From Actinoallomurus bryophytorum (GTDB lineage Bacteria; Actinomycetota; Actinomycetes; Streptosporangiales; Streptosporangiaceae): a stretch of DNA of 64,000 bases. The stretch spans positions 3,968,001-4,032,000 of the forward strand of contig NZ_VFOZ01000001.1 of assembly GCF_006716425.1 (NCBI RefSeq), written 5' to 3'. How positions within the stretch are numbered: the first letter of the stretch is position 1; each line of letters begins with the position of its first letter. The notes beneath the pieces are model-generated. The model saw only the letters and a program-made list of their open reading frames with translations. It was not told the DNA's origin and made no database searches. Below are positions 39,156 to 60,632 of the stretch, piece after piece. The translations under genes and the position numbers were made by a program.

Positions 39156-40088
39156 GGACTTGTTTTGTGGATCTTGGTCGGTGAGTGTGGGTTGATGGCG
39201 TGTCATGGTGCGTCGTCATGAGTTGAGTGATGCCGCGTGGGCGCGGATCGAGCCGTTGTTGCCTGCTCATCCGCGTCAGGGCGGGCGGTGGCGGGATCAC
39301 CGGCAGGTGGTCAACGGAATCGTGTGGAAGATCCGCACGGGCGCCGATTGGCGGGACATCCCGGAACGGTATGGGCCCTGGCAGACGGTCTATCAACGGT
39401 TCAGCCGCTGGTCAGCCGATGGCACCTGGAACCGCCTGCTCGAACACGTCCAGATCCGCGATGATGCGATCGGTGAGGTGGACATGACGGGTGTGTGCGT
39501 GGACTCCACCATCGTGCGCGCTCATCAGCATTCCGCAGGCGCCCGCAAAAAGGGGACCCTGCCGGGACGAACGGGCAGCAAGATCACCAAACGGACCGGG
39601 CGCTCGGACGATCCCGCGGCGGGCTGACCACCAAGGTCCACCTGGCCTGTGACGGACGCGGCCTGCCGCTGGCGTTCGTGATCACGGGCGGCAACATCAA
39701 CGACTGCACCCGCCTGATCCAGGTCATCGAAGCGATCCGGATCCCCCGCACCCACGCGGGGCGGCCGCGCGTCCGGCCGATCCACCTCATCGCCGACAAG
39801 GGCTATTCCACCAACAAGATCCGCCTCTACCTGCGCCTGCGCCGGATCCCGCACACCATCCCCGAACGCCGTGACCAACTCGCCGTGCGCGCCCGGCGTG
39901 GTTGGCGCCGCTGCGGCTTCGACAAGGAGATCTACCGGCGCCGCAACGTCGTCGAACGCTGCTTCGGCCACCTCAAACGCTTCCGCGGACTCGCCACCCG
40001 CTACGAAAAACTCGCCGCTCATTATCGGAGTGTGGTGACCATCGCCAGCCTCATCTTGTGGCTCAACCAAGATCCACAAAACAGGCCC
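39156..40088 (+). mobile_element. IS5-family insertion sequence (two-frame, IS427-like)
   Basis: A 933-bp element. The left end GGACTTGTTTTGTGGATCTT and the right end (reverse complement GGGCCTGTTTTGTGGATCTT) match at 18 of 20 positions. TAG lies on both sides as a 3-bp target duplication; in fact 12 bp (CTAGGGACTTGT) are repeated at 39152-39163 and 40088-40099. The transposase is encoded in two overlapping frames and looks intact. The left copy of the target TAG is the lpdA stop codon, the right copy is the orfB stop codon. A TIR-bearing repeat starts immediately to the right. Confidence 0.92.
39205..39627 (+). CDS. IS5-family transposase, orfA (N-terminal half)
   Basis: 140 residues alone: the DUF4096-type N-terminal domain (LSDAAWARIEPLL, DWRDIPERYGPWQTVYQRF) and the first catalytic Asp in GVCVDSTIVRAHQH. 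A slippery A-AAG-GGG at 39549-39555 allows a -1 shift into orfB, where the protein continues as QQDHQTDRALGRSRGG, the normal family sequence. The fusion would be about 295 residues. Without the shift the product ends as RSDDPAAG and lacks two catalytic acids. Confidence 0.9.
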   Translation: MVRRHELSDAAWARIEPLLPAHPRQGGRWRDHRQVVNGIVWKIRTGADWRDIPERYGPWQTVYQRFSRWSADGTWNRLLEHVQIRDDAIGEVDMTGVCVDSTIVRAHQHSAGARKKGTLPGRTGSKITKRTGRSDDPAAG

Positions 40089-40091
40089 TAG
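39495..40091 (+). CDS. IS5-family transposase, orfB (C-terminal catalytic half)
   Basis: Frame -1 relative to orfA; the meaningful part begins near 39555. It carries the second and third catalytic acids of the DDE domain: LIADKGYSTNKIR (Asp) and RRNVVERCFGHLKRFRG (Glu), with GRSRGGLTTKVHLACDGRG and GGNINDC typical of IS5 transposases. Independent start codons are weak, so it is probably made only as the frameshift fusion with orfA. The stop TAG lies in the target-site duplication. Confidence 0.9.
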   Translation: MRGLHHRARSSAFRRRPQKGDPAGTNGQQDHQTDRALGRSRGGLTTKVHLACDGRGLPLAFVITGGNINDCTRLIQVIEAIRIPRTHAGRPRVRPIHLIADKGYSTNKIRLYLRLRRIPHTIPERRDQLAVRARRGWRRCGFDKEIYRRRNVVERCFGHLKRFRGLATRYEKLAAHYRSVVTIASLILWLNQDPQNRP

Positions 40092-44285: not shown

Positions 44286-46034
44286 TCAGCCTTCCTTGAT
44301 CTCACAGATCACCGCGCCGCTGGAGACGGTCTGGCCGACCTCGGCGGAAAGCCCGCTGACCGTACCGGCCTTGTGCGCGGTAAGCGGCTGCTCCATCTTC
44401 ATCGCCTCCAGCACGACGATCGGGTCGCCCGCCGCCACGGTGGCGCCGTCCTCGGCCACGACCTTGACGATGGTGCCCTGCATGGGGCTGACCAGGGCGT
44501 CACCACCGATCTCGCGGGCGCCGGCCTTCTGCCCGCCCCTCCGCTTGGCCGGAGCGGACGCCGCCGCGGCCGGGGCGCCGCCGCCCAGCCCCGCGGGGAG
44601 CACGACCTCGATGCGCTTGCCACCGACCTCGACCGTGACCTTCTCCCGCTCGCCGGGCTCGTCGCCCTCGGCCACTCCCTCGTACGGCGCGATGCGGTTG
44701 TCGAACTCGGTCTCGATCCACCGCGTGTGCACACGGAACGGCTCGTCGGTGAACGCCGGATCCTCGACCACCGTCCGATGGAACGCGATGACGGTGGGCA
44801 TGCCCTCGATCTCGAACTCGGCGAGCGCCCGCCGCGCCCGCTGCAGAGCCTGCGTCCGGTCCGCGCCGGTGACGACGAGCTTGGCGATCATCGAGTCGTA
44901 CATCTGAGGAACCGTCATGCCCTGCTCGAACCCGGTGTCGAGCCGCACCCCGGGCCCGGTGGGCGGGCTCCACTTCCGTACGGTCCCGGGCGCCGGCAGG
45001 AAGTTACGCCCGGCGTCCTCGGCGTTGATCCGGAACTCGAAGGAGTGCCCGCGCAGCTCAGGGTCGTCGTAGCCGATCGTCTCGCCGTCCGCGATCCGGA
45101 ACTGCTCGCGTACGAGGTCGACCCCGGCGACCTCCTCGCTCACCGGGTGCTCGACCTGCAGGCGGGTGTTGACCTCGAGGAAGGAGATCGTGCCGTCCTG
45201 GCCGACGAGGAACTCACAGGTGCCGGCGCCGACGTACCCGGCCTCTTTGAGGATGGCCTTGGAGCTGTTGTAGAGGAGGTCTCTCTGTTCTGTGGTCAGA
45301 AACGGAGCGGGCGCCTCTTCGACGAGCTTCTGGTGGCGGCGCTGCAGTGAGCAGTCGCGGGTGGAGACGACGACGACGTTGCCGTCCTTGTCGGCGAGAC
45401 ACTGGGTCTCGACGTGGCGCGGCTTGTCGAGGTACCGCTCGACGAAGCACTCCCCACGCCCGAACGCGCCGACCGCCTCGCGTACGGCGGACTCGTAGTG
45501 GTCAGGCACTTCTTCGAGCGTGCGGGCGACCTTCAGCCCCCGCCCACCCCCGCCGAACGCCGCCTTGATCGCGATCGGCAGGCCGTGCTCTCTAGCGAAC
45601 TCCACGACCTCGCCGGCGTCGTTGACCGGATCCTTGGTACCGGCGACGAGGGGAGCCCCGACCTTCTGCGCGATATGCCGCGCCTGCACCTTGTCCCCGA
45701 GCGCCTCGATCGCACTGGGCGGAGGCCCGATCCAGGTGAGCCCGGCGTCGATGACGGCTTGGGCGAACCCGGCGTTCTCAGCGAGGAACCCGTAGCCGGG
45801 ATGCACGGCGTCGGCACCACTCTCTTTGGCGACGCCGAGAAGCTTGCCGATGTCGAGGTAGCTCTCAGCCGCACTCTGCCCCCCGAGCGCGTACGCCTCG
45901 TCGGCGACCTGAACGTGCAATCCGTCGAGGTCAGGCTCGGAGTAGACGGCAACACTGCCGATCCCAGCGTCCTTACAGGCACGCGCGATCCGCACCGCGA
46001 TCTCACCCCGGTTGGCAATCATGACCTTACGCAC
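44286..46034 (-). CDS. Acetyl-/propionyl-CoA carboxylase alpha chain (biotin carboxylase plus BCCP)
   Basis: 582 residues. Biotin carboxylase domain about 1-450: [18 protein letters not shown] at the start, ATP-grasp loop [12 protein letters not shown] (about 163-174), [24 protein letters not shown] and catalytic [12 protein letters not shown] linker rich in Ala/Pro/Lys follows, then a C-terminal biotinyl domain with EAMKMEQ (biotinyl Lys546). It carboxylates its own biotin for transfer by a separate beta subunit (not in this window). Together with the mutase at 13.9 kb it could serve propionyl-CoA metabolism; fatty-acid precursor supply is equally possible. Single gene with its own upstream region. 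Confidence 0.93.
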
Positions 46035-47098: not shown

Positions 47099-47371
47099 AT
47101 GTCCGGAGACAAGCGCGGCGGAAATCTTGGCGCTCTGCACGACCTGTCAACGATGTTCAGTAAGCACTCGAAGAACCTCGACCAGATCATCCGTGACCTG
47201 AACGGCAAGACCGTCAACAGCCAGAACGACTGGTGGGGCCCCGGCGCGGAACGTTTCCGCCAGGCATGGCAGGAGGCCAAGGGGTCCTTCGACAAGATGG
47301 CCCACGCCCTGGAAGAGGGCGGCCAGGACGTCAAGAAGTCCGCACAGAACATCGAACGCGCGACCAGCTAA
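47099..47371 (+). CDS. WXG100-family protein (type VII secretion substrate)
   Basis: 90-residue helical hairpin protein of the ESAT-6/WXG100 class, normally exported by an FtsK-driven type VII machine. The turn motif is NDWWGPGAERF with WxG at Trp45-Gly47, flanked by two amphipathic helices (about 10-40 and 50-86). There is no signal peptide. RBS AAGGGAAAG precedes the ATG. A strong hairpin follows, so it may be transcribed alone or more abundantly than the genes after it. The FtsK-like ATPase lies 3 kb downstream on the other strand. Confidence 0.93.
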   Translation: MSGDKRGGNLGALHDLSTMFSKHSKNLDQIIRDLNGKTVNSQNDWWGPGAERFRQAWQEAKGSFDKMAHALEEGGQDVKKSAQNIERATS

Positions 47372-47377
47372 AGTCGT

Positions 47378-47416
47378 GCCGGGTCACGGCTCTTGGACAG
47401 AGGGCCGTGACCCGGC
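47378..47416 (+). terminator. Terminator hairpin after the WXG100 gene
   Basis: GCCGGGTCACGGC and GCCGTGACCCGGC pair over 13 bp around a 13-nt loop, 6 nt after the stop. It may fully or partly separate the small substrate from the downstream cassette. Confidence 0.85.
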
Positions 47417-47590
47417 TCGGCATCGTGTTTCTTATCACCGAAGAGGGCGAAAAATATCAAGCGGGTCCATATGAGATTCCGAACACTAGTCGCTGAAGGT
47501 GCTTGTTGTTAACATTCTAACCTTGCTATTGCGCCCAGTGGTTAGTTGTCTAAGCTTATTATTTTGGACTAGTACTGAGAGTGTAGCCGT

Positions 47591-49447
47591 ATGACATCTC
47601 GCCGAGATCCGAAAGCTGTAGGGATCGCGCCCGCAGCTCTGAGTGAATTCATCGCCGATCTGCAGTCGAAGGTGGAAAGTGGCTATCCGCAGATATCCAG
47701 CTTGAAAAACTCATTTTCACGCTACGGTATCTCGACCAGTCATATCGCTCAGATTGAGAGTGTCCTCAAGTGGGCTAACGACCAAATTCCTATGCTGCGC
47801 CGTAGGCAGAGTCTTGCGGAGCAAGCCGGAGTGGAGAAGTTTGATCTCCAAAGCTCGGTCCCGATGGTCAGTGCTGGCGCTGGAGTCCTCGATGGTTTCA
47901 AGGATTCAGGCGAGGCTAAACGGGCAGGCAAGGCGGACGCTGACGATGCGCTCTCAACTCTGAAGAGTGAGCACGATATCGGGGATGTCCTCAGGCGACT
48001 TAAAATCAACTCTCTGGATCCTGACTATGCTGAAGCCTTTTATCGAAGGCTGGGGCCCTCCGGAATCCGCGCGTTGAGTCTTGCTATCGGCCAAATGGGG
48101 GACAATAGTTCGGTCGACCCGAAGAGCGCACGGGAAGCAGTAGGAAGATCGTTGGCGACGGCTAGCCATAGAATTCACATAGATGACAAGTGGCTAAATC
48201 AGCTGTCATCGAGCCCGGCGATCGCGGCCAGTGACGGACCGGCGGCCCTCGCGCCTTTCTTGGAATATGGGAACTTCGACAAAGATTGGCTCAAGCTGCT
48301 CGGTGTTCATGTCGTGGCCGGAAATATCAAACCTGGTCCGTCGCAGAAGATTTGGCAGGCTTTGGCCAAAAACCCGCGTGCATCAACAGAGTTCTATCAT
48401 GATCATTTTCTTGCAGTGCAGCATTACGTCAGCATCCACGGCCCAGGGCTGAGTGGCGGCGTCGCCAATGCATTTGCGGGTGTCGTAAGGGCGGCGACTA
48501 TCGACGGCAGGAAAGTAGATCGATGGCTTGCGGAGTTCAATGCTGGTCAGACTATCTATTATTGGAAGAATCACCCCGGTGATCACACCACCAGTCCAAT
48601 AAGGCTGGCGTACGCCGACATGGCGAAGGAGTATTGGGATGATCTAGTGTATTCCGTGTCCTCACCTGTAAAAGAAGCGGGTGCTATTGACAATCCGTTT
48701 CGCAAAGGAATTGAAGTCTCGGAAGATGCCTGGAAACCTTTCCTTAATGAGACAATGCACGATCCGCAAGCTGCTGCAGACATTCTGATCAAGCATAGGA
48801 AGTGGCTGGAGGACGCTCGTCGTAAGGCGGTCTCTGAAACGCCGATAGGTGCGACCCCGGAGAATTGGGAGGGTCAGTCGATTGCCGCCATGAGAGATTT
48901 CCTTCATGGTACCTACAGTGACGTTTCAAGCGATATTGCGAAGCAGGGAAGTGATGCTAGGGATAAGTTTAATGGCGACGTAAAAGGCTCGGTTAAGGAT
49001 GCGACGAAATGGCTCGCCGATAAGGGCATCGAAAAGTTGAATCCGGGAGCGGATATCGATTGGGCGACGAGCACTGCTAGCCTGGTTGCGAGCAAGGGGC
49101 TCGACTTTCTATTCGGTGACGATAAGCCCGGTAAGGTTGATCAGCTCCAAGATAGGCCGCAATTCGGAGGACGGGATTCCTGGCAAGGAAATGCGGCAGA
49201 CGTTTGGGAACAGCGTTTGGCGAACGCGCACCAGGGGGGTCTGCCCTGGCAGGGTGATCCTCGCAAATTTGAGAAGAATTTCGGGGCTAAGTTTACTGAC
49301 GAAAGTGGGCATGTCATGCCCCTGGACAAAATTACGCAAGATCCGAAAGCTCTACTTGCTTATAATGAGTGGTTGAAAGATCCTGCTGTAATTCGCGCAA
49401 CGGAGAGGTTTGTGAATCGAGAGCGAGGGCTCCCTGGTGGGAATTAA
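47591..49447 (+). CDS. Large AT-rich protein of a type VII cassette, unknown function
   Basis: 618 residues. The N-terminal ~110 residues are helical and WXG/LXG-like in feel. The segment LKINSLDPDYAEAFYRRLGP (about 136-155) and its surroundings resemble DUF6571-type proteins found beside WXG100 genes, but I am not certain. A helical middle follows, then a region with ASLVASKGLDFLFGDD, and a C-terminus (about 530-618) with GGRDSWQGNAADVW and RANE-free but charged residues. No signal peptide, no toxin catalytic motif that I can name. Codon use is strikingly AT-richer than neighbouring genes, indicating recent acquisition. Candidate secreted effector or structural component. Confidence 0.7.
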   Translation: MTSRRDPKAVGIAPAALSEFIADLQSKVESGYPQISSLKNSFSRYGISTSHIAQIESVLKWANDQIPMLRRRQSLAEQAGVEKFDLQSSVPMVSAGAGVLDGFKDSGEAKRAGKADADDALSTLKSEHDIGDVLRRLKINSLDPDYAEAFYRRLGPSGIRALSLAIGQMGDNSSVDPKSAREAVGRSLATASHRIHIDDKWLNQLSSSPAIAASDGPAALAPFLEYGNFDKDWLKLLGVHVVAGNIKPGPSQKIWQALAKNPRASTEFYHDHFLAVQHYVSIHGPGLSGGVANAFAGVVRAATIDGRKVDRWLAEFNAGQTIYYWKNHPGDHTTSPIRLAYADMAKEYWDDLVYSVSSPVKEAGAIDNPFRKGIEVSEDAWKPFLNETMHDPQAAADILIKHRKWLEDARRKAVSETPIGATPENWEGQSIAAMRDFLHGTYSDVSSDIAKQGSDARDKFNGDVKGSVKDATKWLADKGIEKLNPGADIDWATSTASLVASKGLDFLFGDDKPGKVDQLQDRPQFGGRDSWQGNAADVWEQRLANAHQGGLPWQGDPRKFEKNFGAKFTDESGHVMPLDKITQDPKALLAYNEWLKDPAVIRATERFVNRERGLPGGN

Positions 49448-49456
49448 GGTGACCGT

Positions 49457-50059
49457 ATGAGCATGCTTAGGCTCTCGAAGGCCCGGGGCTCCCTGGCGGT
49501 TTCGGGAGGTCTCGCGCTTCTTTCCCTGGTTGCGGCGGTAAGCTGTAGAGGAGGTGAGGGGTCAGAGAAGAAGCAGCGTGAGCTCGCTGACGCAAGCCGA
49601 AGGTCGGTACAACTGCAATTTCAGGACTTCCGTAACAAGTTGCCGCGCACTATGTGGAGTGGTGCCGCAATTGCGGGATATCTCCCGTGTGGGAGTAATG
49701 GCGTTAATTATCTTGTTCAGAGTTCGGTCTTGTTTTACGACGAAAAGGCTTCAAGCGTAGACTACCTTCATGATATCCAGCGTACGCTCGTGCCGTCCGG
49801 ATGGATTGTCGAACCGGGTGCTAGTGATCTGGATTTCCGACTAAAGAAAGATGGCAGTGAATTCCATTTCACGGGATTCGATGGAGTCTCGCATGCCAGG
49901 TCGTGGCTCTACGGGGCTTGCCTGAAGGTTGACTCCAAGATTGCGCGGGACCTTCGCCGGAGAAGCCAAGAACGCTGTACATCGACCGTTCACGCAAAGG
50001 GTGCAACCCCCCCACCCGATATTAGATCTTTGTGTTCTTGGGGCGGCCGTCGTGAGTGA
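49457..50059 (+). CDS. Lipoprotein of the type VII cassette
   Basis: 200 residues. N-terminal signal with lipobox VAAVSC (lipidated Cys30), followed by a charged helical stretch (EKKQRELADASRR) and a mixed alpha/beta domain (about 60-170) with VDYLHDIQRTLVPSGW. Two Cys pairs are possible (PCGSN, YGACLK, then RCTSTV, LCSWG). It starts 9 nt after the 618-residue protein and overlaps the next gene by 8 nt, so the three are one operon. It shares their AT-rich composition. An immunity or surface-anchoring role for the cassette is a guess. Confidence 0.72.
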   Translation: MSMLRLSKARGSLAVSGGLALLSLVAAVSCRGGEGSEKKQRELADASRRSVQLQFQDFRNKLPRTMWSGAAIAGYLPCGSNGVNYLVQSSVLFYDEKASSVDYLHDIQRTLVPSGWIVEPGASDLDFRLKKDGSEFHFTGFDGVSHARSWLYGACLKVDSKIARDLRRRSQERCTSTVHAKGATPPPDIRSLCSWGGRRE

Positions 50060-50363
50060 CCTTGTTCCTAATCCGCTGTATCAGGATCTGCAGAAGCTCC
50101 TTATCGACGTCAAGGCTGCAGAGCACTCGCTCGGATCACTGCTCGACAAGTCCGTTAGTAGCATGCAGTCCGACGACGTGTGGATAGGGCCTGCGGCACG
50201 TCAGTGGAGAGACGGGGGATTGGCCCCCAACAAGAAACGGCTCAGGACGTTGGCGAGGGCCCTGGTCGACGATGTGGAGGCGAAGTTGAAATCCACTCCC
50301 GACATGGTGAAGCCGGAGGTCGCCCAGACATACCTCCTACGCCAGGGCCAAGTACCGCGCTAG
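50052..50363 (+). CDS. WXG100-like small protein (second)
   Basis: 103 residues from GTG 50052, which overlaps the lipoprotein stop. Two helices (about 8-38 and 52-82) surround SDDVWIGPAARQWRDG, giving a WxG at Trp44-Gly46, so it is probably another WXG100-type protein, perhaps a partner of the 90-residue one. No signal peptide. It ends 26 nt from the convergent FtsK ATPase gene. Confidence 0.72.
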   Translation: MSDLVPNPLYQDLQKLLIDVKAAEHSLGSLLDKSVSSMQSDDVWIGPAARQWRDGGLAPNKKRLRTLARALVDDVEAKLKSTPDMVKPEVAQTYLLRQGQVPR

Positions 50364-50389: not shown

Positions 50390-53300
50390 TCAGTGTGTGA
50401 CTGCAACCTGTACGGGGACATCGACGCCAAGGCTTACGTGGAGTGCGCGGCCGATGGCACCTGTGCTCGAGGCGTTGCGGGGGAGGCGGAGGCCCAAAAG
50501 CTCGCCGTCGTCCGAAGACTGTACGGCCAGCAGCACACCGGATCGAGAACGCCGGCAGCCGGGGATGAATCCGTTGTACGCCCGCGTGAGATCCTCGTTC
50601 GTGCCGGCGATTATCACCCCATGATCTCCGTCCCGCGCTGACCGCAGAACTCCTTCCAAAGCCTCGCCCACGTCGCTGCGGTCCAGAAGCTCCGCGTCAT
50701 CGACCGCGACGACGTATCGCTGGCAATCACCTATGAGTGACCCCAGCGCATCCTCGTCAGCGTCCGCTGACAGGACTCCGAGGACGCCCGGCTCGTCTTC
50801 CAGGATGAGCAATGGCGAGCGGCGAGGGCAGACTAGTGCGACCGGGACAGAACCCTCGCCGATGTCAGGGTCCAGCAATGACCTCACCATGGTCATGAGG
50901 ACGGTCGATCGGCCGGAGCGGGGTGGACCGGCGATCGTGAATCCCGGACCCTCCGCCAGAAGATCGACACCGATCGGACGAAGCTCGTCCCCGCCGGCGC
51001 CGACCATGGCCCACAGCGGAGATGGCGCCTTGAAGTCCGGATCCGTGGCAAGAGCCTCTGCATACGTCACCCGTACCGGCAGTTCATCCACATGCATGGG
51101 TCGAAGCTCCGGCGATGGACGACTGAATGACCGTTCAGCGGTGCGCGACAGTTGCTGCAACGCAGCCACCTGCGCAGTGCCTGCTGCATTGGGGTCAAGG
51201 AGGGCGATCTGGGACGCACGCAAAGACGATGCACCGACGGCTTCCAGCACTCGTCCGGCCGGCATCTCCGATGGGACATGCCGTTCGTTGATGCCGGCGT
51301 AGTTGTAGTCGTTCGGGTCCGACATTCGCAGGATCAGGCGGTCGTCGAAGACGGTCGACACCTGACCGCCCAAACCCGACCGGTCGCCCGTGAAGACCGC
51401 ACGAAGGCCTACGGCGGTGCCTTCGCGGAGCAAACGCAGCACCGAATCGATCAGCCGCCCGTAGTCATAGTTCTCGAACGCCGCGACGAAGCCCTCCCAT
51501 CGGTCCAGCATCAGGAGCATCCACGGCAGCCGCTCCGAAGGCGTTACCGCCGCACGCTGTTCCGCCAAAGACGCGAACCCCGTGGCCGCCAACACCTGCT
51601 GCCGACGGGATACCTCCGTGTGCAGCCGGGCCAGCAGTCGCTCCATCCGCTCGATCTGGTCGCGGCCCACGACCGCGCCGCAGTGTGGCAAGGCCACCAA
51701 CGGCAGCAGGGCGTTCGCGCCGCAGTCGATCGCGTACAGGTGGACGTCCGAAGGTGCGCATGACGAGGCCAAGGCTCCCGCCAGAGTGCGTAGCACCGTT
51801 GAACGCCCCGACCGCGACGAACCGGCCACGTACAGATGTCCTCCATGCACCAGATCGAGACAGAGCGCAGACCGGGACTGGGAGGCCGGCAGGTCCGTCA
51901 GGCCGAAGGCCAACGGCGCCACGTCGTCCTCATCGGCGAACACTGCGGGCAGGTCATCCAGCGTCACCACCGATGGCAACGGTGCCAGCCACGGCGGTGC
52001 CTCCTCCGTGATCCCCGACCGGTCACACGCCTCGCGAACAGCGGCCACCAGCACCTTCAGGTCCGTCACCATCGATGACTCGTCCTCGACAGCAGATGAC
52101 AGAGCCAATGGCCGGCCAAGGCGAGCCCATGGCAAAGGCACGACCTGCGCGGGCACCGAGGACACGTTCCCCGGGCGGCGGCCGCCGATTCGGGCTGCCT
52201 GGACGGCCACCGGCGCGGCCGCGCCCGACCGTACATAACACCGCCCCGGCGAGGACTTGGAGATGCGCGCGGCCGACGGGTCATCCAGAACGTCCGACGA
52301 CTCGTCCGCGTCCGTCACCCGCAGCGCGATGCGCAGGTTCGTGTTCGCCCGGATGTCACCGGTGACCACACCGGCCGGGCGCTGGGTGGCCAGCAGCAGG
52401 TGCACCCCCAGCGACCGCCCTCGGCGCCCGATATCGACCAAACCCTCGACGAAGTCCGGCAACTCTCCCGCCATCGCCGCGAACTCATCGATGACCAGGA
52501 CCAGCCGCGGTACGCGCGACGGCGCCCGCCGGTCGCCCGCGTCGAACAAAGCGCAGTAATCCTCGATGTCCTTGGCACCCGCGTGCAGCAGCAGTGACTC
52601 CCGCCGCCGTACCTCGGCTCCCAGGGACTCCAGCGCCCGCTCCGTCAAATGGCCGTCGAGGTCCGTCACCATCCCGACCACATGAGGCAGGGACGCGCAG
52701 TCCGCGAACGCCGCGCCACCTTTGTAGTCGATCAGGACGAACGTCATCTCGTCCGGCCGGTTGGCCACGGCCAAAGAAGCGATCAACGTCTGCAGCAGCT
52801 CCGACTTACCCGCGCCCGTCGTCCCCGCGATCAAACCGTGCGGCCCGTCAAAGCGCAGGTCCACCGTGAAGACGCCATCCGCGGACACGCCGACGGGCAC
52901 CGACGTCGTACGGCCCCCGGCCTGCCACACCGCCTGGATCTGGGCGGCGGAAGGCGACGGCATGTGCAGAAGCTCCAGCAGCCGCGCCGACGACGGGATC
53001 ATCGACTCGGCGTCGTCTCGGGACACGTCGCGTACGGGGGCCAGCGCTCGGGCCAGGCGGTCGCACCAGGCCGGTGTCACCTGGTCGGCCAGTACCGCGC
53101 CGACCGAGTCCAGGCCGTTGCCGTGCAGCCGTACGTGCGTTGGGCGGTCCCAGTCCCACACGGCGACCGCCGTGCACTCCTCCGGCAGGAGGCGTTCGTC
53201 GTCGTCGATGCAGATCGCGTGCAGTCCGACAGAAGGACCGCCGCTCAGTACCTGTGGCATGCCCGGGACCCGGCGCAGCTGCCGGGCCCCGTCGAGTACG

Positions 53301-54826
53301 AGGAGGATGTTGTACGACGAGGGAGCCGACGGCGTGACACCGAAGGACGGCTCCGCCGAGCGGCGGCGTTCGGTGATGCGGATGGCCAGCTCCGTCACGC
53401 GCCGGGCCACCGTGTCCGGGTCGGCTCCGATGAGGGCGACGCAGTCCTCGCCCTCGCGCGGCGCGCAGTGGGGCAGCCAGCGCACCCAGTTCCAGTGCGA
53501 GGCGGCGTCCGGCGACGCCGACAGGACAACGATCGACAGGTCGCGCGGGCTGTGCAGCGCGGCAGCCTGGGCGACCAGCCAGCGGGCCAGCGCACGGGAA
53601 CGGTCGCGGGCGCCCGACAGACCCACCACGCCCAGCTCGGCCAAGGGCAGGGGTACGGGCACGGCGTGAGCGACGGGGGCCGGCGGCATCGACGGCTCGT
53701 CACCACCGCCGCGGCCCGCCCGCAGCTCGATGCGGGCGGGCAGGTCGGCCAGGCCGATGCGCAGGTGGAGCGTGTCGGGATCGGTGACGCGGCGCTCCCA
53801 CAGTCGGCGGCGCGGGCCGGTCGCGGTGAGCAGGACCTCGGCCGGGTCCGGTGCCAGCGCGCGCCACTCCGCCTGGTCGGCACGCCGCAGGCTCTCCAGC
53901 GCGCCGTCGAACTCCGCCTTCTTCGCGCGGTATTCGCGAAGAGCCTTCTTGTACGACTTGCGGCCGTACAGGCGGTCGGCGATCCACTCGCCGACCTGGA
54001 TGACGGGGTACGCGAGGGCCATCAGCGCCCAGTACCACTGGCCGGTGAAGACGACCATGACGACGCCGGTCGCGGCGAACAGCAGCGAGCCGAGCAGCCG
54101 CAGCCGCTCCCGCTGGCCCTTCTCCGGCTCCTGCGGCACCTCGATCTGGCGCGGCCCGGACTGCGCGCGGATGCGCGGCGGCCGGTTGTAGGCCAGGCCG
54201 CCGTCCTCGAGCGCCGACAGGTGGGCGTCCGGTGCGACCTGGGGAACCAGCGTGAGCACGGTCGAGCCGACCGCGAGCACCCCGCCGGGCGGCCACTCCA
54301 CCGTGCCGTCCAGCGGGACCTGGTCGAGCACGCCCGAGCCCTGTACGGTCACGCGACGGGACTCGACCGTGACCTTCAGCGCGTGTGGGGGAACGGTGGG
54401 GTCGGGCAGGCGTACGTCCACGTCAGAGCCGGTGCCGAAGGTGGTCTGGCCGATCCCCAGGCGGTGCACGGACCCGGACGCGGGGCCGCCGCTGACCCGT
54501 ACCTCGGCGATGCCGGTCGGCTCGGTGAGCACGGTCCCGGGCGCGGCGCTCTGATGGACGGCCACGACCGCGCCGTCGCGGAGCAGCCGGCCGGCCGGCG
54601 CGGACGGATCGAGCATCCGGCCGTTCGCCCAAAGCGGGTGCGGTGGATCTTCGATCCAGCGCGCGCTCGGAAGGCGTACGACTTCCGCTAGCGGCTCCTT
54701 GACAGCGTCTGCGTTCAATGTGGCAATAAGTGACCGAGCAAGAGTTCCGACCGTCATATCGGAATCGCCGCTGACCACAACGTCACGGGGACCTTGATCG
54801 GTCAACGCCGTGAGCGAGATTCGCAT
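50390..54826 (-). CDS. FtsK/SpoIIIE-type type VII secretion ATPase, EssC/EccC-like with FHA
   Basis: 1478-residue membrane ATPase that would drive export of WXG100 proteins. Order: ubiquitin/YukD-like N-terminus (about 1-90), FHA-like domain (about 105-195; RLGIGQTTFGTGSDVDVRL), two membrane helices (about 243-282), a linker, then three FtsK-like domains. Domain 1 has a full Walker A GTTGAGKS (668-675) and LIDYKGG (698-704), plus LVIDEFAAMAGE and LLLATQRP. Domains 2 and 3 have GSSRSGRST (1002-1010) and GPPRSGRST (1300-1308), with Arg where Lys is expected. FHA plus this layout recalls firmicute EssC more than mycobacterial EccC. No eccB, eccD, eccE or mycP is nearby. Confidence 0.88.
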   Translation of the reverse strand: MRISLTALTDQGPRDVVVSGDSDMTVGTLARSLIATLNADAVKEPLAEVVRLPSARWIEDPPHPLWANGRMLDPSAPAGRLLRDGAVVAVHQSAAPGTVLTEPTGIAEVRVSGGPASGSVHRLGIGQTTFGTGSDVDVRLPDPTVPPHALKVTVESRRVTVQGSGVLDQVPLDGTVEWPPGGVLAVGSTVLTLVPQVAPDAHLSALEDGGLAYNRPPRIRAQSGPRQIEVPQEPEKGQRERLRLLGSLLFAATGVVMVVFTGQWYWALMALAYPVIQVGEWIADRLYGRKSYKKALREYRAKKAEFDGALESLRRADQAEWRALAPDPAEVLLTATGPRRRLWERRVTDPDTLHLRIGLADLPARIELRAGRGGGDEPSMPPAPVAHAVPVPLPLAELGVVGLSGARDRSRALARWLVAQAAALHSPRDLSIVVLSASPDAASHWNWVRWLPHCAPREGEDCVALIGADPDTVARRVTELAIRITERRRSAEPSFGVTPSAPSSYNILLVLDGARQLRRVPGMPQVLSGGPSVGLHAICIDDDERLLPEECTAVAVWDWDRPTHVRLHGNGLDSVGAVLADQVTPAWCDRLARALAPVRDVSRDDAESMIPSSARLLELLHMPSPSAAQIQAVWQAGGRTTSVPVGVSADGVFTVDLRFDGPHGLIAGTTGAGKSELLQTLIASLAVANRPDEMTFVLIDYKGGAAFADCASLPHVVGMVTDLDGHLTERALESLGAEVRRRESLLLHAGAKDIEDYCALFDAGDRRAPSRVPRLVLVIDEFAAMAGELPDFVEGLVDIGRRGRSLGVHLLLATQRPAGVVTGDIRANTNLRIALRVTDADESSDVLDDPSAARISKSSPGRCYVRSGAAAPVAVQAARIGGRRPGNVSSVPAQVVPLPWARLGRPLALSSAVEDESSMVTDLKVLVAAVREACDRSGITEEAPPWLAPLPSVVTLDDLPAVFADEDDVAPLAFGLTDLPASQSRSALCLDLVHGGHLYVAGSSRSGRSTVLRTLAGALASSCAPSDVHLYAIDCGANALLPLVALPHCGAVVGRDQIERMERLLARLHTEVSRRQQVLAATGFASLAEQRAAVTPSERLPWMLLMLDRWEGFVAAFENYDYGRLIDSVLRLLREGTAVGLRAVFTGDRSGLGGQVSTVFDDRLILRMSDPNDYNYAGINERHVPSEMPAGRVLEAVGASSLRASQIALLDPNAAGTAQVAALQQLSRTAERSFSRPSPELRPMHVDELPVRVTYAEALATDPDFKAPSPLWAMVGAGGDELRPIGVDLLAEGPGFTIAGPPRSGRSTVLMTMVRSLLDPDIGEGSVPVALVCPRRSPLLILEDEPGVLGVLSADADEDALGSLIGDCQRYVVAVDDAELLDRSDVGEALEGVLRSARDGDHGVIIAGTNEDLTRAYNGFIPGCRRSRSGVLLAVQSSDDGELLGLRLPRNASSTGAIGRALHVSLGVDVPVQVAVTH

Positions 54827-54989
54827 TCACCCTCCGCATCCCCAGCTTGCGGAACCACAATAGAGAGCAGGCGAGCCGCTCGGCAGCGCCTCGGTGGGAG
54901 TCGTTTCTTGATCACTTGACAAGTTGCGGGACTTGCTGCGCAAACAATCTGTCGTTGCCGCATTGACGCACGGCGTTAAGGGCGGAACG

Positions 54990-55850
54990 ATGGTTCGCCG
55001 CGTCCCGTCAAACGTAATCAGTCCGCAATCACCCGAATTGGCGGAGCAGCCTGTGACGACGAGCAGTGATCGCAAGACCGACGGGCGTCCTTCGCTCGGA
55101 GCGGCCGCCGGTCAGCGCATCCCGGTTCCACGGCGGGAGCGCAAGCCGGCCATGGCGGCGTTGGCCGTACTGCTCATCGTCGGTGGCGCCCTGGTCAGCG
55201 CCTATCTCGTGATGGCGAGCGGCCGGCGCGTCCCCGTGATCAGCATCGCCCAGCCGGTCGCGGCGGGCCAGCAGATCCCGGCCTCGGCGCTGCGCGAGGT
55301 CCAGGTCTCGGCCACCGGCGGGCTCGACTACATTCCGTGGGCCGACCGGGCCAAGGTGACCCAGACCTTCGCCACGGTGACGCTCGTGAAGGGCGCGCTG
55401 CTCACCAACGGCATGATCAGCACGGACTCCTCGGTGGCCAAGGGCAGTGTCGTGATCGGCCTCGCGCTCAAGCCCGGCCAGATGCCGGCGGGCGGCCTCC
55501 AGCCGGGCGACCGGGTCGCGCTGTACGCCGTCGCCTCCCAGGGCGGCCAGAGCGGCGCGCAGAGCGGCACCGTGCTCGCCCCGGCCGCGACCGTCTACGA
55601 CGTCGTGCGGCCCGGCGAGAACGACATCCAGGCCGACCAGGTCACGGTCTCGGTGACCGTCCCGGTCGACCAGGCGCCCCAGGTGACCCAGGCGTCGTCC
55701 GCGGGCGCCGTCGCGGTCGCGCTGCTTCCGCCGGGGGAGAAGGCCCCGCAGTCGCCCCGGCAGCCCGCGCCGTCACCCAAACAAGGCGACGAGCAACCGA
55801 GCCAGCCCCAGGCCACACCGCACACCACCCGATCGACGGGCACCCCCTGA
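54990..55850 (+). CDS. SAF-domain protein of the Tad pilus locus (CpaB/RcpC-like)
   Basis: 286 residues from ATG 54990 (GGGCGGA upstream); a TTG at 54924 would add 22 residues. Basic N-terminus, one membrane helix (about 52-72), then a SAF domain (about 75-150; PVAAGQQIPASALREVQV, LVKGALLTNGMI), a beta-rich domain and a Pro/Gln-rich tail. CpaB/RcpC proteins help organise the pilus channel in the envelope. First gene of the Tad operon, divergent from the FtsK ATPase gene. Confidence 0.82.
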   Translation: MVRRVPSNVISPQSPELAEQPVTTSSDRKTDGRPSLGAAAGQRIPVPRRERKPAMAALAVLLIVGGALVSAYLVMASGRRVPVISIAQPVAAGQQIPASALREVQVSATGGLDYIPWADRAKVTQTFATVTLVKGALLTNGMISTDSSVAKGSVVIGLALKPGQMPAGGLQPGDRVALYAVASQGGQSGAQSGTVLAPAATVYDVVRPGENDIQADQVTVSVTVPVDQAPQVTQASSAGAVAVALLPPGEKAPQSPRQPAPSPKQGDEQPSQPQATPHTTRSTGTP

Positions 55851-56662
55851 TGGGGCTCGTCGTCCTCGCGGCCGACAAGGGAGCGCCGGGCGTCACGACG
55901 GCCGCGGTCGCCCTTGGAGCCGTCTGGCCACGCCCCGTGCTGCTGGCCGAATGCGACCAGGCCGGCGGTGACCTGGTCTACCGGCTGCCCGCGGAGGGCG
56001 GCGGCATGCTCAACCCCGCCCGCGGCATGCTCAGCCTCGCCGCGACCGCGCGGCGCGGCCTGCGCGCCGAGCAGATCTGGGAGCACACACAGCGGCTCGA
56101 CGGCGGGCTGGACGTCCTCGTCGGCCTCGCACGTGCCGAACAGGCGCAGGGCCTCACCTGGCTGTGGAATCCCCTCGGCCGTGCATTCGCGACTCTGCCG
56201 GGCACCGATGTGGTGGCCGATTGTGGCCGCCTGGGCGCCGGATCGGCCGTGACCGATCTGTTGCGCGAGGCGTCAATGATTCTCCTGTTCACTCGCGCGA
56301 CTCTCGAGCACGTCGCTCACCTGCGCGAACGCATTAATTCCCTTTCCAGCGAACTCGGCGGCCACGCCGCGCCGCCGATCGGAATCGTCGTCGTCGCCGA
56401 TCCGAGCGAATACCGGGCCTCCATAACCGAGGTCGGCCGGATCATTTCGAACGCGAAACTGCCGGCCACCGTCCTCGGGGGTTTCGCCATGGATCCCAAG
56501 GGTGCTGAAATGCTGAGGGGCCAGTGGGGTGGCCGACTCGACCGATCACTGCTGATCCGTTCGGCCCGGCAGATCGCGGGTCAGCTCGCCGCACGGGTCG
56601 CGAGTGGGCCGGGGGCGGATCGCGAGACGCAGGGAGTGGCAAGTGGACCACAGCCTCGTTAA
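55850..56662 (+). CDS. CpaE/TadZ-like ParA-family protein
   Basis: 270 residues starting in the TGATG overlap with the SAF gene. MGLVVLAADKGAPGVTT is a deviant Walker A of the MinD/ParA type (KGAPGVTT, lacking the second Lys), and TDVVADCGRLG is the Walker B region. TadZ/CpaE proteins place the Tad machine at the membrane and often have a degenerate P-loop, as here. No receiver domain is present. The next gene starts inside its end. Confidence 0.82.
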   Translation: MGLVVLAADKGAPGVTTAAVALGAVWPRPVLLAECDQAGGDLVYRLPAEGGGMLNPARGMLSLAATARRGLRAEQIWEHTQRLDGGLDVLVGLARAEQAQGLTWLWNPLGRAFATLPGTDVVADCGRLGAGSAVTDLLREASMILLFTRATLEHVAHLRERINSLSSELGGHAAPPIGIVVVADPSEYRASITEVGRIISNAKLPATVLGGFAMDPKGAEMLRGQWGGRLDRSLLIRSARQIAGQLAARVASGPGADRETQGVASGPQPR

Positions 56663-57944
56663 GCGCCTTCGCCAGGACGTCGGAGCCAGGCTGGCCGACC
56701 AGCGGCGGCTCGACGCGGCCAACGGCATCGCCGCGATGAACCCCGAGGACGAACGCCAGTTTGCCCGCGCCCTCATCGGCCAGGTCCTGGAGGAGTTCGC
56801 CCGCGCCGAGATCGGCGCCGGCCGCCGTCCGCCCAACGCCGAAGAAGAAGAGCAACTCGCCGCGGGTGTGCACGCCGCACTGTTCGGCGTCGGACGGCTC
56901 CAGCCGCTGCTCGAGGACAACGAGATCGAGAACGTCGACGTCAACGGCTGCGACAAGGTCTTCATCGGGTACGCCGACGGCCGCGAGGTGATGGCCGAGC
57001 CGGTCGCCGAGTCCGACGAGGAGCTCGTCGACCTGATCCAGATCCTGGCCGCCTACAGCGGGCTGTCCAGCCGGCCGTTCGACTCGGCCAACCCCCAGCT
57101 CGACCTGCGGCTGCCCGACGGCTCCCGGCTGTCGGCGGTCATGGACGTGACTGTACGGCCGGCGCTGTCGATCCGGCGCGCGCGGCTCGGCAAGGTCTTC
57201 CTCGCCGACCTGATCGGCAACGGCAGCATCAGCACCGAGATCGGCCTCTTCCTGCGCGCGGCCGTCGGAGCGCGCAAGAACATCATGATCGCCGGAGCGA
57301 CCAACGCCGGAAAGACCACGATGCTGCGGGCGATCGCGAACGAGATCCCGGCCAACGAGCGGCTCATCACCGTGGAGCGCGCCCTCGAACTCGGCCTGGA
57401 CCAGTTCCCCGAGCTGCACCCCAACGTCGTCGCGCTGGAGGAGCGCCTGCCCAACTCCGAGGGCCAGGGCACGATCACGATGGCCGGGCTCGTACGCCGG
57501 TCCCTGCGCATGAACCCCTCGCGCGTGATCGTCGGTGAGGTCCTCGGCGACGAGATCGTCACCATGCTCAACGCGATGACCCAGGGCAATGACGGATCGC
57601 TGTCCACGATCCACGCGAACTCCTCCTGGGAGGTCTTCAACCGCATCGCGACGTACGCGCTGCAGTCCGACGAGCGGCTGCCCATCGAGGCGACGCACAT
57701 GCTCATCGCGGGTGCCATCGACTTCGTGGTGTTCATCGAGAAGCGCAACGACTACATGCAGGGCGGCCGGCTGCGCCGGTTCGTCTCCAGCATCCGCGAG
57801 GTGACCGGCTGCGACGGCCGGGTGCTGTCCAGCGAGATCTTCGAACCCGGCCACGACGGCACCGCGCGGCCGGCCGCGCCGATCGCCTGCGCGCAGGAGC
57901 TCGTGCCCTACGGCTACGACCCGTCACACGGAGCGGTCTGGTGA
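56643..57944 (+). CDS. CpaF/TadA secretion ATPase
   Basis: 433 residues from GTG 56643 (GGGAGTGG upstream), overlapping the CpaE-like gene by 20 nt. Secretion-superfamily hexameric ATPase that powers pilus assembly. Walker A is GATNAGKTT (about 218-226), with ENVDVNGCDKVFIGY in the N-terminal domain, VIVGEVLGDEIVTML as Walker B and STIHANSSWEVFNRI as the His box. The usual RGxExR region reads LVRRSLRMNPSRVIVGEV. Confidence 0.93.
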   Translation: MDHSLVKRLRQDVGARLADQRRLDAANGIAAMNPEDERQFARALIGQVLEEFARAEIGAGRRPPNAEEEEQLAAGVHAALFGVGRLQPLLEDNEIENVDVNGCDKVFIGYADGREVMAEPVAESDEELVDLIQILAAYSGLSSRPFDSANPQLDLRLPDGSRLSAVMDVTVRPALSIRRARLGKVFLADLIGNGSISTEIGLFLRAAVGARKNIMIAGATNAGKTTMLRAIANEIPANERLITVERALELGLDQFPELHPNVVALEERLPNSEGQGTITMAGLVRRSLRMNPSRVIVGEVLGDEIVTMLNAMTQGNDGSLSTIHANSSWEVFNRIATYALQSDERLPIEATHMLIAGAIDFVVFIEKRNDYMQGGRLRRFVSSIREVTGCDGRVLSSEIFEPGHDGTARPAAPIACAQELVPYGYDPSHGAVW

Positions 57945-58927
57945 CAGGCGCACTCTCGGGGGACCTCGCACTCGCGATCATCGCCGGAGCGCTGGTCGGC
58001 GGCGGTGTGCTGCTGCTCATCGTGGCGATACGCGGCGTCCGGCCAAGGCCCGGCAAGCCGTCCGGACGCAGCCGCGAGGAACTGATACGCACCCTCACGA
58101 CGCGCACCGCGCTGGCCGTCGTCGTCGGAGTGGTCGTACTGGTCGTCACCCGGTGGCCGGTCGCGAGCATCGGCGCCGCACTGCTCGTCCTCGGCTGGAA
58201 CAGCATCGGCGGCGGTGCCGCGGAAGAACGCCGCTCGATGGCACGCCTGGAGGCCCTCGCCGCGTGGACCGAGTCGCTGCGCGACACCATCGCGGGCGCG
58301 GTCGGGCTCGAACAGGCCGTCCCGTCGTCGCTGCGTGCGGTGGCCCCGGTCCTGCATCCCCACGTACAGGCGCTGGTCGACCGCATGCACACGCGCGTGC
58401 CGCTCGCGGACGCTCTGCGCCGGTTCGGCGACGACCTCGACGACGCGTCCGCCGATCTCGTGGTCGCCGCGCTGATCCTCAACGCGCGGCTGCGCGGACC
58501 GGGCCTGCGCGACATGCTCGGCGCGCTCTCCACCTCCGCCCGCGCCGAGCTCGACATGCGCCGCCGGGTCGAGGCGAACCGCCGGACCACCCGTCGCAGC
58601 GTCCAGATCGTCGTCGGCGTCTCGGTGGGCACCGCGCTGCTGCTCTCCGTGGTCAACCGCGCCTACGTCTCGATGTACGACACGTTCACCGGCCAGCTGG
58701 TCCTGGCGGTCGTCGTGGGCCTTTTCGCGGCCGGGTTCGTCTGGCTCCGGCGCCTGGCCAAGTACGAGACGCCGCAGCGCTTCCTGGCCTCGGCCGACTC
58801 CGAAAAGCCGTCGTCGGCCAGGCCGGGTGTGCCCGCCGAGGTGCCGGAGACCGTCGCGCGCTGGCAGGGCCAGACCCCCGCGAACGGCAGCACCACCGCG
58901 GCCGACCCCCGAGGAGGCGCGCGATGA
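57941..58927 (+). CDS. TadB-like platform protein (type II secretion F family)
   Basis: 328 residues. Membrane segments near 10-30, 50-85, and at the C-terminus (about 225-265), with a cytoplasmic T2SSF domain (about 100-215; LAAWTESLRDTIAGAVGLEQ). Platform protein of the Tad pilus. The GTG start overlaps the CpaF stop (GTGA), and its TGA overlaps the next gene. Confidence 0.9.
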   Translation: MTGALSGDLALAIIAGALVGGGVLLLIVAIRGVRPRPGKPSGRSREELIRTLTTRTALAVVVGVVVLVVTRWPVASIGAALLVLGWNSIGGGAAEERRSMARLEALAAWTESLRDTIAGAVGLEQAVPSSLRAVAPVLHPHVQALVDRMHTRVPLADALRRFGDDLDDASADLVVAALILNARLRGPGLRDMLGALSTSARAELDMRRRVEANRRTTRRSVQIVVGVSVGTALLLSVVNRAYVSMYDTFTGQLVLAVVVGLFAAGFVWLRRLAKYETPQRFLASADSEKPSSARPGVPAEVPETVARWQGQTPANGSTTAADPRGGAR

Positions 58928-59835
58928 CCGTCGCACTGCTGGCCGGAGCCTTCTTCGGGCTCGGCGCTTACCTGCTGTTCCGTGCGATCTTCCCGCCGCG
59001 CCCCGGCCTGTCGGCGCGGCTCGCCGCCTTCGACGCCGCACGCCGGCGCGGCGAGGCCGATCCGTCCCGCGCCACGAGCGCCGCCGAGCGGGTCACCGGG
59101 CTGCGCGCCCGAGTCGGCAAGTCCCTCGCGGCCTTCTACGAGGCGCGGGGGTGGCAGCAGCGCTCGGTACGCGCGGACCTGGCCCTGCTGGACCGCTCGT
59201 TCGAGACCTTCCTGGCGACGAAGTTCCTGCTCGCGACCGCGGCGATCGTGTTCATCCCGATCCTGGTCGCCTACTTCGCGGTCCTGGGCCTCGACGTCGT
59301 GATCGCGGTCCCCGTGTGGCTGGGCATCTTCTTCGCGCTGATCTTCTTCCTGCTGCCGGACATGCAGCTGAGGAGCGAGGCGGCGTCACGGCGGCGCGAC
59401 TTCCGGCACGCGGTCAGCGCCTTCCTCGACCTCGTCTCGATGAACCTCGCCGGTGGCCGCGGTGTGCCCGAAGCCCTGATGACCGCGGCCAACGTCGGCG
59501 ACGGCTGGGCCGTACGCCGCATCCGGGACGCGCTGTCCAACGCCCGGATCACCGGGATCACTCCCTGGCAGGCGCTGGGCCGGCTCGGCGAGGACGTGAA
59601 CGTCGACGAGCTGCGCGACCTGTCCGCCGCGCTCGCGCTGGTGGCCGACGACGGGGCGAAGGTGCGCCAGTCCCTGTCCGCCCGCGCGGCCAGCATGCGC
59701 AGCCGCGAGCTGTCCGACATCGAAGGAAAGGCCGGTGAACAATCCCAGTCCATGCTCGTCGCCCAGCTCCTGCTGTGCGCCGGGTTCTTGATCTTCCTTG
59801 CCTATCCGGCGGTGATGCGCGTGGTCGCCTCGTGA
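58924..59835 (+). CDS. TadC-like platform protein
   Basis: 303 residues beginning in the ATGA overlap with tadB. N-terminal helix, RVGKSLAAFYEARGW, two helices (about 105-145), a T2SSF domain (about 160-275; FRHAVSAFLDLVSMNLAGG, then GVPEAL) and a final helix LLCAGFLIFLAYPAVMRVV. Second platform protein of the Tad machine. Confidence 0.9.
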   Translation: MTVALLAGAFFGLGAYLLFRAIFPPRPGLSARLAAFDAARRRGEADPSRATSAAERVTGLRARVGKSLAAFYEARGWQQRSVRADLALLDRSFETFLATKFLLATAAIVFIPILVAYFAVLGLDVVIAVPVWLGIFFALIFFLLPDMQLRSEAASRRRDFRHAVSAFLDLVSMNLAGGRGVPEALMTAANVGDGWAVRRIRDALSNARITGITPWQALGRLGEDVNVDELRDLSAALALVADDGAKVRQSLSARAASMRSRELSDIEGKAGEQSQSMLVAQLLLCAGFLIFLAYPAVMRVVAS

Positions 59836-59881
59836 TGGCTCGGTTCTCGTTCAGACAGTCCCTATCCCTGCGAGGTGCTCC

Positions 59882-60121
59882 ATGCAGTGGCTGAACCCGA
59901 TGAATGACCCCCGCGTCGCCTATTTCCGGTCATCCGTTGGGTCGCGGATTTACCGCTTGCGCAATGAGACCGATCGCACGCGCGGCGCCTCGGCGATCGA
60001 ATGGGCCATCATCACCGGCATTCTCGCCCTTATCGCGATCACGGTGGGCTGGGTCATCTACCGGCGCGTCACGGCCGCCGCCAACAAGATCAACGTGAAC
60101 AACGGACCTGGTAGTGGCTGA
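59882..60121 (+). CDS. Flp-like pilin
   Basis: 79 residues. A basic 33-residue leader (ending RTRGASAIEW) precedes the hydrophobic helix (about 40-60; AIITGILALIAITVGWVIY). GASAIEW is the prepilin-like site, with Glu five residues into the mature part as in type IV/Flp pilins; TadV/CpaA-type peptidase cleavage after Gly is expected. Probably the major pilus subunit. Confidence 0.8.
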   Translation: MQWLNPMNDPRVAYFRSSVGSRIYRLRNETDRTRGASAIEWAIITGILALIAITVGWVIYRRVTAAANKINVNNGPGSG

Positions 60122-60161
60122 TACGCGAGCCAGGTGAAATCGCGGAGGGACGAGCGGGGAA

Positions 60162-60632
60162 GTGAGAGCAATGCGCGGTCGGTCTGGGGGGCTCGCCGCC
60201 TTCAAGGCGGCCTGCCGCGCGTCGGCCGGGGGGCGGCGCGATCGGGGTGCGAACACCCTTGAGCTTGCCCTGCTGACACCGATCCTGCTTCTCGTCATCT
60301 TGTTCGTCGTTCAGTTCGCCCTGGTGTTCCACGCTCGCCACGTCGCGCTCGCAGCCGCGCAGGCCGCCGCACGTGTCGCCCGCGAACAGCGCACCGGCGA
60401 CTGGCGGTCGGCCGCCAGGACCGAGGGGGTCGAGTACGTCAACAAGATCGGCCCGCAGCTCCTGACCAAGGTCGAGGCGGTCCCGGACGGGGGCGCGAAC
60501 CAGCGCGGCGTCACCATCGGCGGCTATGCCGTCCCGGTGGTGCCGTTCTTCAAGTTCCATGTCAGCGAACACTCCGGTGGCCCGGTCGAGTGCTACCGGC
60601 CCGACGTAGGCGCGGGCGAGACATGCGGATAG
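60162..60632 (+). CDS. TadE-like pseudopilin (first)
   Basis: 156 residues. After a basic leader (RDRGANTLELALLTPILL) comes a TadE-type hydrophobic helix (about 34-58) with the conserved Glu, then a periplasm-side domain. A Cys pair is possible (VECYRP and GETCG at the end). GTG start at 60162; an ATG three codons later is possible. Minor pseudopilin of the Tad pilus. Confidence 0.85.
   Translation: MRAMRGRSGGLAAFKAACRASAGGRRDRGANTLELALLTPILLLVILFVVQFALVFHARHVALAAAQAAARVAREQRTGDWRSAARTEGVEYVNKIGPQLLTKVEAVPDGGANQRGVTIGGYAVPVVPFFKFHVSEHSGGPVECYRPDVGAGETCG

Follow-up and report, generated by a model that had tools for sequence, protein, structure and literature searches.

A putative exchangeable cargo cassette beside a Tad-linked type VII secretion ATPase gene in Actinoallomurus bryophytorum

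The type VII secretion systems (T7SS) of actinomycetes are known chiefly from mycobacterial ESX, and the third ATPase domain of actinobacterial EccC binds a signal in the WXG100 tail. Here we describe an AT-rich insert of three genes that lies between a WXG100 gene and a gene for an EccC-type ATPase in Actinoallomurus bryophytorum, within a stretch of 64,000 nucleotides (contig NZ_VFOZ01000001.1, positions 3,968,001 to 4,032,000; hereafter the window). The insert encodes a protein of 618 residues (P618), a lipoprotein (LP) and a small WXG100-like protein (WXGL). The nearest functional analogue of this trio, with no sequence relation shown, is the TslA–TilA–TlaA1/A2 set of the Staphylococcus aureus T7SSb, in which a lipase effector, an immunity lipoprotein and helical partners form a functional set (PMC10730906). 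TslA nevertheless has the reversed order, toxin first, whereas the part that P618 shares with its relatives is N-terminal and no lipase domain was detected in it.

The ATPase also has a described counterpart. In S. aureus, EssC variants combine a constant core with a variable C-terminus that is tied to variant-specific cargo, a link supported by experiment (PMC5994694), and such variants also occur in Listeria (PMC10327511). The present locus differs in being actinomycete and Tad-linked, in lacking a nearby EccB gene and in having a WXG100 protein that varies too; its cargo specificity, moreover, is a prediction from sequence. A 2024 survey of T7SS subtypes places T7SSg and T7SSh, which likewise lie beside Tad pilus genes, among seven new types confined to Bacillota, and gives T7SSd as its only new actinomycete type (PMC11217815). 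The ATPases of T7SSg and T7SSh are described there as devoid of an N-terminal FHA domain and accompanied by ubiquitin-like proteins; the ATPase studied here is actinomycete and has a weak FHA-like match. According to the same survey, candidate toxins of the new subtypes mostly adjoin small WXG100-related partners. An N-terminal trafficking domain with an exchangeable C-terminal toxin domain is the design of the LXG/WXG/LDXD polymorphic toxins (PMC3482391), and a T7SS toxin with a targeting factor and a putative immunity gene has been reported from Amycolatopsis (PMC12691689).

Our interpretation, to which we would give a probability of about 0.7, is that the three genes form an exchangeable cargo cassette of the T7SS, composed of an effector (P618), an immunity protein (LP) and a partner (WXGL), and that the parts determining specificity are exchanged together. 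P618 would be secreted by the neighbouring system; its N-terminal helical domain (approximately residues 1–310), distantly related to DUF6571, would serve for delivery by pairing with WXGL to give a signal read by the adjacent EccC. LP would be the cognate immunity lipoprotein on the outer face of the membrane, a location implying that the envelope of adjacent cells would be the target of P618's C-terminal part. The system itself would be a Tad-linked T7SS made up of an EssC-like ATPase and one WXG100 protein, with no EccB nearby, in which recombination would replace the cassette, the WXG100 protein and the EccC tail of ~160 residues together and leave the EccC core untouched.

More tentatively, and at somewhat less than even odds, we suggest that this is a distinct EccB-free, Tad-linked T7SS of actinomycetes, with a specificity module exchanged as a unit and a hitherto unnamed DUF6571-related delivery domain joined to Ntox17, calpain or unknown ends. 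If so, it would provide an actinobacterial counterpart to EssC variant typing, endow non-mycobacterial actinomycetes with an antagonism-type T7SS carrying modular cargo, and give a delivery function to proteins now annotated merely as unknown or as DUF6571. The natural variants of EccC tail, WXG100 and cargo could then be used to probe cargo choice by T7SS ATPases outside Bacillota.

The features on which the argument depends are as follows.

47591..49447, + strand: P618, 618 residues, candidate T7SS effector (family profile comparison; toxin and protease ends of relatives)
49457..50059, + strand: LP, lipoprotein of 200 residues, candidate immunity protein (lipobox-like N-terminus; position)
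50052..50363, + strand: WXGL, WXG100-like partner of 103 residues with a WIGP motif (likely GTG start; family alignment of 14)
50390..54826, - strand: EccC/EssC-type T7SS ATPase, 1478 residues (FtsK_SpoIIIE, E 1.7e-59)
50393-50866, - strand: variable tail of EccC, residues 1321-1478, facing the cassette (comparison of tail and core identity)
47099..47371, + strand: WXG100 (EsxA/TsxA-like) core substrate of 90 residues, allotype A (Pfam WXG100, E 2.6e-10; TIGR03930, 45.9 bits against a cut-off of 44.85)

Apparent covariation of the EccC tail, WXG100 and slot content

An EccC orthologue is present in all eight genomes of the genus, namely that of the window and seven others (G001–G007; numbers with L denote fetched loci), and the content of the slot beside it, legible in all but G004, differs between them. 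The P618–LP–WXGL trio occupies the slot in the window and in G006, with P618 only 34% identical between the two. G002 has a partial LP and a WXGL at a contig edge; between the window and G002, identity is 49% for LP (partial copy), 78% for WXGL and 86% for EccC. In G003, the slot holds a non-homologous trio that encodes a lipoprotein, a small protein weakly matching WXG100 (E 0.0015) and a protein of 680 residues; the family of the latter occurs in 25 of 200 genomes of the same bacterial family, at least once near the EccC of another genus (G071 contig 751). In G001, G005 and G007, approximately 12–13 kb of other genes separate EccC from WXG100, and no P618- or WXGL-type gene was found in their EccC-side stretches. 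The slot of G001 contains a PucR-type regulator, and that of G007 (L106 149-8748) has LanB- and LanC-like genes for lanthipeptide synthesis and a methyltransferase gene beside EccC. In G005 (L108 8363-9451, L226 14001-16000), an AT-shifted stretch with a G+C content (GC) of ~0.55 adjoins EccC and encodes a secreted-looking protein of 362 residues with no Pfam match. Outside the genus, two further genomes of the family, G104 and G131 (L117, L118), have the genes for EccC, WXG100 and the biotin carboxylase (AccC) immediately side by side, an empty form of the slot; two of 15 EccC loci of other genera (L109–L123) have a P618-family gene near EccC (L113, L114).

The EccC core (residues 211-1240) is 87–90% identical among the window, G006, G003 and G002. 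The tail is 52–56% identical in the five pairs with different cassettes and 73% identical between the window and G002, which share a cassette. Relative to the line obtained from 319 baseline pairs, the five differing pairs fall 3.7 to 4.3 standard deviations (sd) below expectation, the window–G002 pair 1.4 sd below it, and the pairs among G001, G005 and G007 only 0.3 to 0.7 sd below it; these values come from 26 proteins, one per genome, retained after a coverage and score filter, and the pairs are not independent. In trees of 15 of these genomes, the core places the window as sister to G006 (support 95/96) and rejects a grouping of window with G002, the very grouping that the tail recovers (97/95). 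The tail in turn rejects {window, G006, G003} (p 0.015) and {window, G003} (p 0.002), the tested groups having been picked after the data had been seen.

The WXG100 protein encoded next to AccC exists as three allotypes. Type A, that of the window, is 62–71% identical to the proteins of seven of 14 genomes from other genera and 26–36% to those of the other seven, and only 44–46% to those of the five other members of the genus. Type B (G001, G003, G005, G007) is 83–99% identical internally and 44–46% to type A, while type C (G006) is 42–49% identical to A, to B and to the first seven other-genus genomes. Variation in specificity of the EssC kind is thus seen here as an association, within one genus and with a cassette in four genomes. 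Judged from these alignments and trees, it looks like a specificity module that changes as a unit, recombination being supported rather than proven.

The P618 family and its partner genes

No Pfam or NCBIfam model matches P618 up to E 0.1, in which its N-terminal part departs from the LXG/WXG/LDXD toxins; Pfam LXG in particular gave no match to P618 up to that value and does not appear among the families listed for 17 members, although a remote relation may exist. A first search turned up relatives in 21 of 60 genomes, and a four-row profile (E 1e-10) detected them in 132 of the 297 family genomes and in 44 of the 394 from the class, many with the N-terminal half only; open reading frames (ORFs) of this family shorter than 250 residues were excluded from family counts. 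An hhalign comparison of a 17-row alignment of close members with an 8-row alignment of a DUF6571-like clade gave a probability of 99.9% (E 6.6e-37, 553 columns). DUF6571 (PF20211) is matched by the distant kin L056 (36.3 bits) and L035 (35.2 bits), both over the gathering score of 27, and, at E values up to 0.1, by four of 17 close members (best 8.3e-6). By profile comparison, then, P618 is a distant relative of DUF6571 and not a member, since the gathering score is not reached.

Evidence for an effector role comes from the C-termini of these relatives. Among 24 distinct ones scanned, four end in an Ntox17 domain (L214, L215, L217, L218) and one in a calpain protease (L216), and these proteins have approximately the first 310 residues in common with P618. 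L216 and L217, from the same genome (G156), are 100% identical in their first two 44-residue bins and 11–37% in their last seven. A common N-terminus followed by differing toxin or protease ends is what characterises polymorphic toxins that share a delivery domain; this arrangement is found in the family rather than in P618 itself. A lipase reading of P618 was dropped because its GxSxG-like stretch is not kept in aligned homologues. In L202 7600-13560 (G499), three P618-type copies stand in tandem with similar ends and a more diverged middle, copy 1 being 54–65% identical to the others in several middle bins. The P618-type copies at L033 5519-7423 and L035 8681-10598 are disrupted by a stop or frame change and appear to be decaying.

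A small partner gene is a regular companion of this family. Of the 29 close family genes (E below 1e-30), 25 have a WXGL-type gene on their own strand no more than 3 kb away, as do 16 of 17 short ones and 9 of 13 DUF6571-like ones (50/59 in total); in loci outside profile training, the counts are 14/18, 13/14 and 9/13. The profile, built from WXGL-type sequences alone, gave no hit in 400 kb of control sequence and does not match the WXG100 protein of the window; the loci had mostly been fetched for the large gene, some for EccC and none for the small gene. An earlier iterated profile had drifted into WXG100 proper and was discarded, its count of 51/59 being replaced by the present one. The four close genes lacking the neighbour are two of the L202 tandem copies, L216 and L218. 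WXGL itself has no Pfam match and, despite its WIGP motif, does not reach the gathering score of WXG100 (PF06013), to which hhalign relates it only weakly (probability 23%, E 8.7e-4, 46 columns). An earlier start, at 49929, had been assigned to this third gene; the GTG at 50052 is the likelier one, supported by the sequence and by the V-P-N-P-like motif at which most homologues begin.

The proximity of EccC to these genes is less regular. It lies within 10 kb of 12 of the 29 close genes and within 4 kb of the toxin-ended L214, L215 and L217. In L213, L215, L217 and L034, all from other genera, P618-type genes occur on either side of EccC, so that their position relative to it varies within the family.

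Four genomes from three genera (window, L032, L031 from Actinacidiphila yanglinensis, and L034) have the genes in the order P–LP–WXGL. Lipoproteins resembling LP occupy the equivalent place in L031, L032 and L124, that of L034 having been identified by eye. LP has no Pfam match; a lipobox-like AVSC follows its hydrophobic N-terminus (by eye), and the lipoboxes of the L031, L032 and L034 proteins are, by eye, more typical. The Ntox17 forms L214 and L215 are followed by another kind of small gene, which by eye looks similar in both. A change of effector is thus accompanied by a change in the neighbouring gene, as is the case for immunity genes; LP also lies at the place that such genes occupy, and it may be the immunity protein. 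Following the calpain-ended effector, L216 9984-10621 carries two small genes, one with a membrane-anchor-like start; they are possible immunity genes and have no Pfam match. The dN/dS ratio (nonsynonymous to synonymous substitutions) was not used for the cassette, dS being high or undefined. The effector, partner and lipoprotein module proposed in the preliminary description therefore fits what the relatives display, namely Ntox17 and calpain ends, WXGL-type neighbours, a recurring gene order and a variable slot.

Short P618 paralogues, which lack the C-terminal half, are present in all eight genomes of the genus; in the genome of the window, one stands with a WXGL-type gene at another locus (G000:C1:148391-149002, L043 9271-10864), with equivalents in G001–G007.

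Composition and competing explanations

An AT-rich insert with codon usage unlike that of its flanks had been noticed from the sequence, and this was borne out. Sliding composition drops from a GC of ~0.70 to ~0.53 at the insert; GC is 0.538 for 47591-50059 and 0.541 for 47378-50363, as compared with 0.702 for the remaining window. Control windows of 2.5 kb (n=720, taken by sliding along twenty 20-kb stretches of this genome) have a mean GC of 0.702 (sd 0.024, minimum 0.585); no window falls to 0.56 or lower, and all exceed the insert. P618 has a GC of 0.533. At third codon positions, GC is 0.551 for P618 and 0.557 for LP, with only one of 302 control genes at or below 0.58, the controls being simple ORF calls of at least 180 residues and not curated annotation. 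Codon adaptation of P618 (0.324) and LP (0.342) lies under all 302 of these calls and that of WXGL (0.432) above only five, whereas the flanking genes are ordinary (WXG100 0.713, 141 calls lower; EccC 0.624, 71 lower; CpaF 0.810, 274 lower). The observation that the three genes overlap or nearly touch also holds, P618 and LP being 9 nucleotides apart and LP and WXGL overlapping by 8.

The insert was likely acquired, as the preliminary description had it, at a date that its composition does not give: the cassette genes at the same slot of G006, G002 and G003 are likewise AT-shifted, so that AT-richness is no proof of recent arrival. Housekeeping homologues of host-like composition, named beforehand as what would speak against an effector module, are not what the close family presents, since each of the 29 close genes has a lower GC than its surrounding locus (mean difference -0.05; the window is the most extreme at -0.16). 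They are a better description of the short relatives, only two of 17 of which lie below their locus and whose GC is normal as a class.

Several observations weigh against reading the insert as an effector cassette exchanged together with the EccC tail. No toxin domain is recognised in P618 itself, and of the checks suggested for this protein, profile comparison yielded the remote DUF6571 relation but structure prediction a poor model (mean predicted local distance difference test score, pLDDT, 50.6). The C-terminal part of P618, of a type other than Ntox17 or calpain, is conserved in other genera, if at low identity (at most 56% in single bins), which implies that this end was not newly swapped. 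In the fetched DNA, the toxin-ended L216 and L218 are accompanied by no WXGL-type gene and no EccC, and 17 of the 29 close genes have no EccC within 10 kb. Different lipoproteins, of ~400 residues and with at most weak propeller matches, stand beside the more distant kin, so LP need not be an immunity protein. P618 was not found in G002, an assembly in 380 contigs, and no WXG100 was found in G002 or G004. With respect to EccC, all 12 pairs of the four species with G001, G005 or G007 also fall 1.35–3.1 sd below the line, and the tail fails to reject either the pairing of window with G006 (p 0.11) or a clade of the four species (p 0.14), so that core and tail trees disagree in one direction only.

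The last two observations, together with the long tail branches of G006 and G003, would be expected if the EccC tail and WXG100 had diverged rapidly within each lineage and had not been exchanged with the cassette. We consider this rather unlikely, because the window's WXG100 resembles those of seven genomes from other genera more than those of its own genus, because G003 carries allotype B (83–85% identical to G001, G005 and G007) contrary to the EccC core tree, and because window and G002 are separated by the core and joined by the tail. Conservation of the C-terminus could also indicate that P618, LP and WXGL form a non-toxic surface or adhesion module of the T7SS/Tad machine, with LP as anchor or receptor. 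The model of P618, although of low confidence, is mostly helical and resembles helical repeats; Tad genes adjoin the locus; and a beta-propeller component is described for T7SSg (PMC11217815), which recalls the weakly propeller-matching lipoproteins beside the distant kin. Such a module is clearly improbable, as the Ntox17 and calpain ends of five relatives, the patchy slot and the faster-evolving LP fit conflict genes better.

Another possibility is that a mobile element arrived recently and that the slot is a general insertion hotspot, its place beside EccC being incidental. The extreme AT content and the lanthipeptide and PucR-type genes in the slots of G007 and G001 would agree with this. 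However, the closest tRNA gene is ~14 kb from the insert, no integrase-like ORF was recognised there by eye (no dedicated search was made), the sole direct repeat of at least 16 nucleotides at 46.0–51.5 kb is a pair within P618, and P–WXGL pairs adjoin EccC in other genera; recent arrival of this kind therefore appears very unlikely. Least probable of all is an ordinary DUF6571-type protein pair with an unknown housekeeping role. The short paralogues with their WXGL-type gene, ubiquitous in the genus and normal in GC, would suit it, but they lack the C-terminal half, whereas full-length kin are patchy, AT-shifted and in some cases equipped with toxin domains. An exchangeable cargo cassette thus remains the reading that we prefer.

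Surroundings of the locus

The remaining features of the locus are listed below.

47375..47419, + strand: stem-loop with 19-nucleotide arms and a 7-nucleotide loop, possible terminator (inverted-repeat search)
54924..60632, + strand: start of a Tad pilus operon with RcpC/CpaB, CpaF, TadB and TadE (Pfam RcpC, T2SSE, T2SSF, TadE)
44286..46034, - strand: biotin carboxylase (AccC-type), far border of the locus (Biotin_carb_N/C, CPSase_L_D2, Biotin_lipoyl)

The normal codon usage of the WXG100 gene and the 19-nucleotide inverted repeat that follows it suggest that this gene may form a separate transcript; the stem-loop was not listed by a consensus terminator scan. The best NCBIfam matches of EccC are EssC (533 bits), EccCa (395) and EccCb (310), all under the curated cut-off, and the weak FHA-like match (Yop-YscD_cpl, residues 110-196) is likewise below cut-off. 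EccB is encoded three times in the genome, at 1.94, 2.04 and 2.90 Mb, each more than 1 Mb from EccC (4.02 Mb); with no EccB near EccC, the locus is not a canonical ESX, and by this measure it does not belong to T7SSa. The T7SSd markers that stand beside TsdC, namely the kinase TsdD, TsdH and the Ig-domain protein TsdI, were not recognised among the inspected neighbours, no dedicated search having been made. An AccC-type gene adjoins WXG100 in other genera as well (for example L109, L111 and L116–L118). In the Tad operon, the RcpC match (26.8 bits) is under its cut-off of 28.8, and the TadZ-like and Flp-like genes were named by eye, neither having a Pfam match. An ORF at 39495-40091 of the window, ~7.5 kb from the insert, resembles by eye a fragment of an IS5-type transposase.

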